A stretch of 24,001 nucleotides of DNA from a virus, in IMG/VR virus record IMGVR_UViG_3300023176_001566, positions 1 to 24,001 of that record. One strand, written 5' to 3'. This document shows, one piece after another, positions 3,214 to 6,267 of this stretch. The notes under the pieces are model-generated. The model saw nothing but the letters and a program-made list of their open reading frames with translations, made no database searches and was not told the origin of the DNA. The translations under genes and the position numbers were made by a program. Numbering within the stretch: the first letter of the stretch is position 1; each line of letters starts with the position of its first letter.

Positions 3214-3247
3214 AGTTCTTGACAAATCCTTAAAAGCCGTGTATAAT
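3214..3247 (+). promoter_or_regulatory. Sigma70-type promoter P2
   Basis: TTGACA (3219-3224), a 17-bp spacer and TATAAT (3242-3247) are preceded by AGTTC as in the other copies. Transcription should begin near 3254, directly at or just before the ATG at 3255 and 26 nt before the ATG at 3280. It would transcribe the tRNA-Glu gene. Confidence 0.92.
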
Positions 3248-3254
3248 ATTATAT

Positions 3255-3554
3255 ATGATTATAAAAGGAAGTTTAAATTATGACCAATTTGGTCGCAAAA
3301 GAAAAAGAAAAGCAACAAGGGCGCGTTCGTCTAGTCAGGTGAGGACACAAGGTTTTCATCCTTGCAACACGGGTTCGAATCCCGTACGCGCTTCCAGTAA
3401 ACACATACCTAGTGCAGAACTGAAGCCATATACACCGCCGAAAGATGACAGCTATAAGAAAGAAGTAAGTAAAAACTATACTGTTTCGATAGCGTACAAC
3501 AAAGGTGCATATCAAGTGATTCCTAAGGATGAAGTCAAACATATCGGAAAATAG
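3255..3554 (+). CDS. Small protein gene interrupted by tRNA-Glu
   Basis: From ATG 3255 a 99-codon frame runs open through the tRNA at 3320-3396 and ends at TAG 3552. Residues 22-48 are then simply a translation of the tRNA, so this frame may not be the ancestral one. A second start, ATG 3280, has an AAGGAAG site about nine bases upstream. It encodes MTNLVAKEKEKQQG and then enters the tRNA, where it meets TGA at 3340. If exactly the 77 tRNA bases are removed, the 3280 frame joins the downstream frame at ...KQQG/KHIPSAELK... and gives 65 residues ending in YTVSIAYNKGAYQVIPKDEV followed by KHIGK. The C-terminal part looks like a genuine small protein. Whether the product is the 99-aa read-through, a disrupted gene, or something processed is open. 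Confidence 0.45.
   Translation: MIIKGSLNYDQFGRKRKRKATRARSSSQVRTQGFHPCNTGSNPVRASSKHIPSAELKPYTPPKDDSYKKEVSKNYTVSIAYNKGAYQVIPKDEVKHIGK
3320..3396 (+). tRNA. trnE: tRNA-Glu (anticodon UUC)
   Basis: A full cloverleaf of 77 nt with encoded CCA can be drawn. The acceptor GGCGCGT pairs with ACGCGCT. The D stem is GTCT/GGAC, the anticodon stem CAAGG/CCTTG with loop TTTTCAT (anticodon TTC), the variable loop CAAC, and the T arm ACGGG-TTCGAAT-CCCGT. The TC at positions 8-9, GTCT D stem and 4-nt variable loop match bacterial tRNA-Glu. Two features are odd: the first pair is G1-U72 and the discriminator base is U73, whereas bacterial tRNA-Glu normally has G or A there. GAA is a very frequent codon in these AT-rich genes, so the tRNA could support phage translation. 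It is transcribed from promoter P2. Confidence 0.93.
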
Positions 3555-3586
3555 TTCTTGACACATGGTTAAATTTTTAGTATAAT
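3548..3586 (+). promoter_or_regulatory. Sigma70-type promoter P3 (leaderless ligA)
   Basis: TTGACA (3558-3563), a 17-bp spacer and TATAAT (3581-3586) form another perfect copy. The TAG stop of the preceding frame (3552-3554) lies inside the conserved ATAGTTC block. The ligA ATG is at 3593, only six bases after the -10 box, so the transcript should start at or next to the A of the ATG. Confidence 0.93.
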
Positions 3587-3592
3587 ATATAA

Positions 3593-4531
3593 ATGTTAGA
3601 AAATCTTATCAAGCGAGCATCAGCAGAGTATTATAAAGGCACTCCAATCATGTCAGATGAGGTTTTCGATCACCTAGTACAAATGGTGACAGAAGAAAGT
3701 ATCGGTTATAAGAGTTCTTATGAAAGAAGATACAAGCACATGTTTCCTTTGTTCTCCCTCCAAAAAGTAATACAAGGCGTCGATTCCCCACCAGATTGGG
3801 GAAACGACGACTTTGTTACGACTGCAAAACTTGACGGTGCAGCTATAAGTATACTTTATGGTGGAGGTGAGTTTCAAAAAGCACTCACAAGAGGAGACGG
3901 AATAGAAGGACTAGACATTACTCATCTTATTCGTACACTAGTCCCGAATAAAATTAATTATGATGAGGTAATACAGATTTCGGGAGAAGTAGTAGCTCCC
4001 AAGGAGATACCTAATGCAAGAAACTATGCAGCGGGTGCGCTAAACTTAAAAGATAGAAAAGAATTTGAGACAAGAGAACTCAACTTTGTCGTACACGGAG
4101 TATCTCCTTACATTACAGACAACTATGTATCAGACATGAGATTTATATCAAATCTTGGTTTCGATACAGCCATCGATAGTGACTACTCACAGTTTCCTCA
4201 TGACGGCTCTGTATTTCGCGTTGCTCAAAACGATAGATTTGACGCATATGGATATACAAGTCATCATCCCCGTGGCGCATTTGCCCTGAAGAAGCAGGAA
4301 ACAGGAGTAGTCACCGTCCTCCAAGATGTAACTTGGCAAGTAGGTAAATCAGGTGCAGTTTCACCTGTTGCACACTTCAAGCCAATCGACATAGAGGGCG
4401 CAACAGTATCAAAGGCAACTCTACACAATAAGTCAATTATCGAAGCACTGAATTTAGAAATTGGATGCAAGATAGAAGTAATTCGTGCAGGTAAAATTAT
4501 ACCGCAAGTTTTAAGGAGAATAAATGACTGA
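3593..4531 (+). CDS. ligA: NAD-dependent DNA ligase, adenylation and OB subunit (LigA)
   Basis: This 312-residue protein is the N-terminal half of a bacterial-type NAD+-dependent DNA ligase, which seals nicks during replication. A domain Ia-like helix pair (SAEYYKGTPIMSDEVFDHL) starts the protein. The nucleotidyltransferase core has the nucleophile motif KLDG (K79), RGDG (100-103), SGEV (130-133) and RNYAAGAL (143-150). The OB fold is at about 225-312 (TWQVGKSGAVSPVA ... IEVIRAGKIIPQVLRRI). The motif IV lysine of the usual DGVVIKV is Arg209 here (DGSVFRV). The protein ends just where the zinc finger would begin; that part is supplied by LigB at 5506. Phage T5 also has LigA and LigB. Translation is probably leaderless from P3, since there is no room for a ribosome site after the predicted start of transcription. 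Confidence 0.93.
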   Translation: MLENLIKRASAEYYKGTPIMSDEVFDHLVQMVTEESIGYKSSYERRYKHMFPLFSLQKVIQGVDSPPDWGNDDFVTTAKLDGAAISILYGGGEFQKALTRGDGIEGLDITHLIRTLVPNKINYDEVIQISGEVVAPKEIPNARNYAAGALNLKDRKEFETRELNFVVHGVSPYITDNYVSDMRFISNLGFDTAIDSDYSQFPHDGSVFRVAQNDRFDAYGYTSHHPRGAFALKKQETGVVTVLQDVTWQVGKSGAVSPVAHFKPIDIEGATVSKATLHNKSIIEALNLEIGCKIEVIRAGKIIPQVLRRIND

Positions 4532-4890: not shown

Positions 4891-5089
4891 TACACTTAGA
4901 CAAAAAATAGAACTTCGTATGCAAATTCTTGAAGAAATGATGAAAAGAAATATGCAGATTCATGACCCAGAAACAGTAGATTTATTCTTAGATAGACTTA
5001 CTTACTGTTGGGGAGTTATGAATGAAGAAGATCGTGATTTTGTTCAAGGTTGTCAGTTTGCACTTGAAGAAAAACATGAGTGGAAATGA
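4883..5089 (+). CDS. Small acidic helical protein (68 aa)
   Basis: This 68-residue protein is rich in Glu, Met and Asp and probably all-helical (TLRQKIELRMQILEEMMKRN ... ETVDLFLDRLTYCWGVMNEE). The ATG overlaps the end of the membrane-protein gene by 8 nt, and the stop overlaps the next ATG (ATGA at 5086-5089). I do not recognise the family. Its only evident context is the small-gene cassette that separates ligA from ligB. Confidence 0.65.
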   Translation: MANTLRQKIELRMQILEEMMKRNMQIHDPETVDLFLDRLTYCWGVMNEEDRDFVQGCQFALEEKHEWK

Positions 5090-5451
5090 GCGGAGTCTAT
5101 AATCAAACCTATTTTGACAATCACCCTCACGAAAAAGATAGAGAAGGTGTTCTCTATGGAGTTATTCTAGTAAATAAATCCACTTGGGAACGTGAATGTA
5201 TCAAGGTAGGAATTGCCAGTGGAAAAGACTGGCGTCATGTAATCAAAAGAAGTCGTGGTTTTCAAGGCTACGATTTGCGTATTCAACGCACTTATCATGA
5301 TACTATTTATAACTGTTGGAAGTTTGAGCAAGAACTACATAAGAAGTTTAAGCATGATAGTTACAAACCTCAACAAAAATTTGGTGGGCACACAGAGTGC
5401 TTCAAAATTTCGTCCCTTATTTTACGGGACTTCCCAAAAAATAGTTCTTGA
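5086..5451 (+). CDS. GIY-YIG-type nuclease (T5orf172/MUG113-like)
   Basis: This 121-residue protein follows the T5orf172/MUG113 branch of the GIY-YIG nuclease superfamily. It has a first strand VLYGVILVN, a second element CIKVGIASGKDWR (the K-G and following Arg), a basic loop, then the glutamate helix KFEQELHKKFKH and a closing GGHTECF motif. GIY-YIG proteins cut DNA, and many are homing or site-specific endonucleases. It uses ATG 5086 overlapping the preceding stop; GTG 5080 is an alternative. The last three codons AAT-AGT-TCT and the TGA stop are part of promoter P4, so the C-terminal NSS is promoter-derived. It lies between the ligase halves, which would fit a mobile nuclease that split the gene. 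The activity is not proven. Confidence 0.72.
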   Translation: MSGVYNQTYFDNHPHEKDREGVLYGVILVNKSTWERECIKVGIASGKDWRHVIKRSRGFQGYDLRIQRTYHDTIYNCWKFEQELHKKFKHDSYKPQQKFGGHTECFKISSLILRDFPKNSS

Positions 5452-5505: not shown

Positions 5506-6267
5506 TTGAGAGAAATAATTATACCAACACATTGCCCAGCTTGCAACACAGAGTTAGACATTGTGAATGACCAATTATTTTGTCGAAATGATACTTGCCC
5601 TGCTAAGTCATCCAAACGAGTCGAGCATTTTGCCAAGACTTTGAAAATAAAAGGACTTGGTTCAGCTTCAATCGAGAAACTTGACTTACAGGACTACCAC
5701 GATATTTATGCTCTTACAGAACAAGAAATATCGGTTGCTCTAAATTCGGAAAGGCTAGGAGAGAAATTATTTGCTGAGATAGAAAATTCTAAATCAGCAA
5801 GTTTAACAACTCTCCTTCCAGCTTTTTCGATACCGCTGATAGGTTCTAGCGCATCTAATAAATTGACCAAACAGGTCTCGAATATTTCAGAGATAACCTA
5901 CCAAAAGTGTATAGATGCTGGTCTGGGACCTAAAGCGGCGTCGAATTTAGTTAATTGGTTAGATAATTCATTCTATCCAATGGAGTACGACGACTTACCT
6001 TTTACATTTACTTGTGAGAAGTCCGAAGTCGACAACACCCCGAAGAAAGGTGTTGTTTGTATAACAGGTAAACTTAAAAGCTATCCTACAAAGGCAGTAA
6101 CGAAAGAAGTTTTACTAAAACATGGATTTGAGACAAAGGATAATCTTACAAAAGATGTTACGATTCTATTGAACGAAAGTGGCATAGAATCAGCAAAAAC
6201 TAATAAAGCCCGAGAAATGGGTGTAATAATTTACGATAATATAAAAACTTTAATAAAGGATAATTAA
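5506..6267 (+). CDS. ligB: NAD-dependent DNA ligase, Zn-finger/HhH/BRCT subunit (LigB)
   Basis: This 253-residue protein is the C-terminal half of an NAD-dependent DNA ligase. Four zinc ligands are intact (C10, C13, C26, C31; CPAC ... CRNDTCPAK). Helix-hairpin-helix units follow: LKIKGLGSASIEKL at about 46-60, then EKLFAEIENSKSASL and GLGPKAASNLVNWL at about 145-158. A BRCT domain fills about 182-253 (GVVCITGKLKSYP ... TNKAREMGVIIYDN). Nothing of the adenylation domain is present, so it must work with LigA (3593). The start is TTG 5506 behind an AGAGAGAAG sequence, and it is expressed from its own promoter P4. It begins exactly where the OB fold of LigA stops. It is followed after 2 nt by the HTH gene. 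Confidence 0.92.
   Translation: MREIIIPTHCPACNTELDIVNDQLFCRNDTCPAKSSKRVEHFAKTLKIKGLGSASIEKLDLQDYHDIYALTEQEISVALNSERLGEKLFAEIENSKSASLTTLLPAFSIPLIGSSASNKLTKQVSNISEITYQKCIDAGLGPKAASNLVNWLDNSFYPMEYDDLPFTFTCEKSEVDNTPKKGVVCITGKLKSYPTKAVTKEVLLKHGFETKDNLTKDVTILLNESGIESAKTNKAREMGVIIYDNIKTLIKDN

Follow-up and report, generated by a model that had tools for sequence, protein, structure and literature searches.

Phage tRNA genes are normally intergenic. A tRNA-Lys reportedly lies within the mitochondrial cox1 gene of the isopod Armadillidium vulgare (a case attributed to Doublet, 2015), for which we know of no family of empty and occupied homologues. In bacteria, a predicted tRNA-Sec gene (selC) nested at the end of selB in Alphaproteobacteria has been termed the first nested tRNA in a bacterial open reading frame (ORF), and tRNA processing was proposed to be mutually exclusive with synthesis of the full-length protein; the same paper mentions a mitochondrial nested-tRNA case (Mukai 2021, PMC8124441). 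A literature search, covering few subscription journals, found no paper on phage nested tRNAs, and the selB study was the only relevant one.

Here we describe a small phage gene that very probably has a dual use, the same DNA being read as tRNA and as protein code, as judged by comparison with its homologues. Its tRNA is complete with an encoded CCA, as ordinary phage tRNA genes are, but differs from them in lying in a conserved coding sequence. The likeness to the A. vulgare cox1 case is a tRNA fully within a coding region and in direct orientation, the difference being that the latter belongs to a compact animal mitochondrial genome. The locus is the same kind of overlap as the selB case, with which it shares a whole sense-strand tRNA within an ORF, a maintained frame and remnants in some lineages, but it is a variant. 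In selC/selB the tRNA forms a C-terminal extension, is only ever tRNA-Sec, is mostly 93 or 96 nt long (multiples of three) and occurs in cellular genomes (PMC8124441), whereas in the phage family it lies internally, flanked on both sides by conserved coding parts, recurs with several ordinary isotypes (Glu, Ala, Asp and Thr), has lengths not divisible by three and in some members is tandem.

The open frame across the tRNA

The 24-kb stretch analyzed (the window; 24,001 nucleotides of IMG/VR record IMGVR_UViG_3300023176_001566) carries replication genes by PHROG assignment: NAD-dependent ligase halves, a DnaB-like helicase, a DNA polymerase and a helicase. The features at the locus are:

3219..3247, + strand: sigma70-type promoter TTGACA-17-TATAAT, read from the sequence; perfect, 7 nt upstream of ATG 3255
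3255..3554, + strand: 99-aa coding sequence, conserved at the N-terminus and in the C-terminal module, the linker between them being encoded by the tRNA; putatively PHROG 4593-related
3255..3319, + strand: N-terminal part MIIKGSLNYDQFGRKRKRKATR in the ATG-3255 frame; conserved in frame in tRNA-less homologues
3320..3396, + strand: tRNA-Glu(UUC) with encoded CCA, nested in the coding sequence; ARAGORN, Rfam RF00005, compensatory changes
3355..3357, + strand: anticodon TTC, position 36 of the tRNA; ARAGORN
3397..3551, + strand: C-terminal module KHIPSAEL...YTVSIAYNKGAYQVIPKDEVKHIGK, the conserved coding part 3' of the tRNA
3558..3586, + strand: second TTGACA-17-TATAAT promoter, 6 nt upstream of the ligase N-terminal ATG 3593

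The original prediction of a tRNA-Glu at 3320-3396 is borne out by ARAGORN and by Rfam, where it scores 60.7 bits against a gathering cut-off of 29 for RF00005 with all arms present; lying inside conserved coding sequence, it does not qualify as a free-standing tRNA. Likewise correct is that the frame from ATG 3255 runs across the tRNA without a stop. It is the only frame open through 3320-3396, ends at TAG 3552-3554 after 99 aa, and encodes peptide such as TQGFHPCNTGSNPVR from the tRNA. As predicted, ATG 3255 also lies at the expected transcript start. With the promoter ending only 7 nt before this codon, the mRNA is probably leaderless or nearly so, and all Glu and Glu-like homologues likewise have only 6-9 nt between -10 element and ATG, as do most Ala homologues with a recognized promoter. 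The neighboring ligase N-terminal gene has its own promoter similarly close to its ATG, which suggests that this phage often uses leaderless starts. Separate genes encode the N- and C-terminal parts of the ligase (PHROG 3359 and 3498), and small genes lie between the two (region coordinates 3593-4531, 5080-5451 and 5506-6267), of which 5080-5451 looks from its sequence like a putative GIY-YIG-type endonuclease.

A different frame, that from ATG 3280, had been taken for the otherwise intact small gene, into which a tRNA of exactly 77 nt would have been inserted to interrupt a 65-aa protein. The frame arithmetic speaks for this: the frame does meet TGA 3340 within the tRNA, 77 is 2 mod 3, and deleting the 77 nt would formally join KQQG to KHIP. 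The homologues speak against it. Those without a tRNA carry the N-terminus MIIKGxxxYDQxGRKRK of the ATG-3255 frame, in frame with the C-terminal YTVxxAYNKGAYQVIPxxDVxHIGK and separated from it by a variable linker, and those with a tRNA share this organization. The ATG-3280 peptide MTNLVAKEKEKQQG is absent from all homologues compared and is thus joined to the C-terminus in none of them; nor is the ATG-3280 codon conserved (TAT-GAC is TAC-GAC in homologue L007, for example). The real gene, by this comparison, is the 99-aa read-through frame from ATG 3255, and the 65-aa join is the one-in-three frame coincidence that the original prediction had itself allowed for. We regard the 65-aa frame as ruled out, with a probability close to nil. 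What does stand of the proposed insertion is that homologues with an empty linker exist.

A start downstream of the tRNA was considered and rejected as well. The window gene has no in-frame ATG, GTG or TTG from the tRNA end to the YNKGAYQVI motif, and it is one of 44 among 65 tRNA-bearing genes (below) with no start codon in this interval.

Nested tRNAs recur across a marine phage family

With the C-terminal 51 residues as query, at least 591 homologues were found in IMG/VR. Our comparison set comprised 259 distinct genes from all viral scans; the queries were partly picked to reach tRNA-bearing members, and fractions within the set are not prevalences. ARAGORN called a tRNA nested within the ORF in 65 of the 259: Ala(TGC) in 18, Asp(GTC) in 14, Glu(TTC) in 13, Thr(TGT) in 8, tandem Glu+Ala in 6, Pro(TGG) in 1, and Glu-derived elements called as Lys or Stop in 5. 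In all 65 an in-frame ATG precedes the tRNA by 18 codons or more, and in none of the 259 genes was a frame-breaking tRNA found at up to 420 nt from the end of the gene. A second N-terminal type, common to Pelagibacter phages HTVC008M and Mosig EXVC030M, is found with nested Thr, Asp and Pro tRNAs (the HTVC008M homologue itself has none), and the same C-terminal module follows both types. Isotype, frame and N-terminal type occur in ten combinations, at least several of which, on this evidence, must be separate insertions, although 65 genes do not amount to 65 events and several clades may share one insertion. In the genomes compared, then, the nested layout is a recurrent one in a large marine phage family, with Glu, Ala, Asp, Thr and probably Pro tRNAs, some in tandem.

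The protein matches no known structure or domain of note. PHROG 4593 was the only family recovered (Pfam gave no match of note): it was matched by 12 of 12 tRNA-less homologues, with a best E value of 2e-5 and weak single matches (the first at 0.037), and the window protein itself did not match it at E 0.01. The hypothetical proteins of HTVC008M and Mosig EXVC030M share the homologous C-terminal module, as, probably, does PHROG 4593. Modeled with AlphaFold (pLDDT 74.8, pTM 0.30), the window protein scores best in the C-terminal half and lowest at about residues 21-40, and the model has no PDB match at E<=0.001. The tRNA-encoded residues fall mostly in the lowest-confidence part of this modest model, consistent with a tolerant linker. 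Some homologues (L135-L138 and L271-L273) are proteins of about 40-50 aa with little beyond the C-terminal YNKGAYQVI module, so that in some phages the module seems to occur on its own. A T5-like Klebsiella phage (MZ634344.1, 65769-66053; L311) also has a weak homologue of it (E 0.7).

Close relatives differ in whether the linker is occupied. In pairs of occupied and empty genes (L061 versus L140/L144, L139 versus L155, L118 versus L143/L148, and in a second set L399 with Asp versus L406 and L398 with Thr versus L407, both without a tRNA), the ends are similar and the difference is mainly a tRNA or an unrelated linker. Along a tree built from the neighboring ligase, 14 changes of linker state are counted (minimum 5), which indicates rapid exchange of the insert between close relatives. 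A search of GTDB genomes for a tRNA donor gave no exact match to the 50-nt consensus tRNA-Glu core or to the full tRNA-Ala.

The frame is kept over many spacer lengths. Distinct 5' spacers measure 56, 62, 65 and 68 nt for Glu and 75, 81, 96, 99 and 114 nt for Ala, and distinct 3' spacers 155, 167 and 179 nt for Glu and 131, 134, 137, 140, 155 and 167 nt for Ala, each tRNA keeping to one class mod 3. The tRNAs themselves, at 76-77 nt, are not divisible by three, and the 3' spacers compensate; where a Glu tRNA is one base shorter (76 nt, in L046), the 3' spacer has moved by one class. Each of the 42 different nested tRNA sequences is read in an open frame, against a mean of 1.5 open frames of 3, and Asp tRNAs use all three frames in different members, each open every time. 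Among 52 other tRNAs on the fetched contigs, 4 lay in a frame open for at least 18 codons on both sides, a control that takes in contigs fetched by DNA pattern, with all 4 open cases on two such contigs. The nested arrangement recurs, in frame without exception, in 65 distinct homologous genes, which places it far beyond chance in this comparison.

Constraint on the protein and on the RNA

We then compared substitutions in the flanks and the tRNA. In the ATG-3255 frame, pN/pS of the tRNA-bearing groups (values drawn from overlapping sequence pairs) was 0.19-0.43 on the 5' side of the tRNA and 0.14-0.40 on its 3' side, and 0.19-0.34 for the N-terminal part of the GRKRK-type groups. For the tRNA-encoded peptide it was 0.4-1.4 in most groups, implying little protein-level constraint; this peptide could be merely tolerated. 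Synonymous divergence was lower within the tRNA than in the flanks in every group (Ala, 0.070 versus 0.60/0.45; Asp, 0.067 versus 0.38/0.29). Third codon positions were constant in 21 of 25 tRNA codons and 15 of 71 flank codons for Ala (Fisher 4e-8), and in 45 of 51 and 23 of 65 for Glu+Ala (5e-9). The close clade of the window gene shows this third-position contrast in the same direction, not significant alone (p=0.22), with pS of 0.087 in the tRNA and 0.316 downstream. Glu members with a normal anticodon show changes on both sides of 11 of 17 acceptor, anticodon and T-stem pairs. With flanks under purifying selection and synonymous divergence reduced in the tRNA, the protein and RNA readings both look constrained. 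Folding of the mRNA in context recovered the acceptor and T arms and not the full cloverleaf; the isolated tRNA behaved likewise, so that folding energy alone is no evidence here.

Ten members (L007, L010, L019, L030, L047, L217, L221, L231, L232 and L234) carry Glu-derived elements in which the acceptor (7 bp), the T stem (5 bp, loop AUCAUnC) and a D arm of the Glu type are all kept. Their anticodon arm has a 4-nt loop (UUCG, UUAG, CUCG or CUAG) or an unusual one (CAUUUGU or AAUUUGU), and their 3' end is ACCC or ACCT. In L007, L010, L047 and L232 the arm is a 5-bp hairpin with a 4-nt loop and the frame of the gene is kept. In L019, L217 and L231 one or two anticodon-stem pairs are broken. L008 resembles these elements with anticodon UUA, and L046 is intermediate, with anticodon UUC and CCA yet a T loop AUCAUGC. 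These elements, with their 4-nt hairpin loops or with anticodon loops that lack U33, are probably unable to decode. Their structure nonetheless seems to be kept, which leaves room for a regulatory role; both-side changes occur at 9 of 17 pairs in the group, some of them from L008 alone. A free-standing origin was not supported: outside the family, the D-arm pattern matched only tRNA-like sequences on seemingly unrelated contigs. No Rfam tRNA match was found in the 74-kb contig of L017, a phage with a Glu-like element.

One transcript with two proposed fates, and the alternatives

The location of the tRNA, its frame, the coding constraint on both sides, the RNA-level constraint and the recurrence are established by comparison of homologues, which jointly supports two options from the original prediction, a read-through fusion protein and an RNA acting at once as mRNA and as precursor of the tRNA. 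In the dual-use gene that we propose, a strong promoter at the start codon would drive transcription of a small gene with an intact tRNA gene in its variable linker, in a frame without stops, between the conserved N-terminal part and the C-terminal module. Translation of the primary transcript across the tRNA could give the 99-aa protein, in which the tRNA would supply about 26 linker residues. The same transcript could instead fold and mature into tRNA-Glu(UUC), with RNase P acting at the 5' end and 3' nucleases trimming back to the encoded CCA; this would cut the mRNA. Both products would presumably be made, competing on one transcript, with the tRNA used in decoding; the linker would tolerate tRNAs because it is unstructured.

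Alternatively, the open frame might be accidental, and the locus would then comprise two separate ORFs, a short one upstream and another downstream, with a free tRNA between them. ATG 3280, preceded by a Shine-Dalgarno-like GGAAG, could indeed start a 20-codon peptide ending within the tRNA, but N- and C-terminal parts form one protein in tRNA-less homologues, the frame is held without exception over the spacer lengths above, and the missing downstream start codons in 44 of 65 genes also count against this extremely unlikely reading. Nor do we put much weight on the tRNA being a fossil, a relic that supplies linker residues to a protein that alone matters. Such decay or repurposing does occur, as the Glu-derived elements of L007, L010, L019, L047 and L232, with altered anticodon arms and no CCA, attest. 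Against this, the tRNA of the window and most others is complete with CCA at 54-70 bits, compensatory changes affect all three helices tested, synonymous divergence is reduced, and no tRNA other than the nested one was found in the 24-kb window or in relatives of 32 kb and 63 kb; the fossil explanation is accordingly very improbable in our view.

Less remote, if still unlikely, is a regulatory device in which the nested tRNA or tRNA-like fold serves mainly to have the mRNA cut or bound, as an RNase P switch or a synthetase mimic, with decoding secondary. In its favor are the Glu-derived elements, which keep their acceptor and T stems and show paired changes while probably not decoding, and the 27-member ligase clade that includes the window, where every member has a tRNA or tRNA-like insert. 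In the wider family, however, most sampled members have no insert, and most inserted tRNAs look fit for decoding. A further reading is possible and somewhat speculative: this gene family would be a dedicated phage system that repeatedly captures tRNAs in its linker, with tRNA folding and processing acting as a switch between tRNA and protein, and the non-decoding elements kept as pure regulatory mRNA domains.

The same bases thus appear to serve as a complete tRNA gene and as code for a conserved protein, with several isotypes, in tandem in places and in all three tRNA frames. For genome annotation, pipelines may lose either the tRNA or the coding sequence at such loci. With empty-site homologues at hand, the question of how one transcript serves both translation and tRNA processing is directly testable. 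More generally, the single bacterial case published understates how readily tRNA genes can settle in coding sequence.
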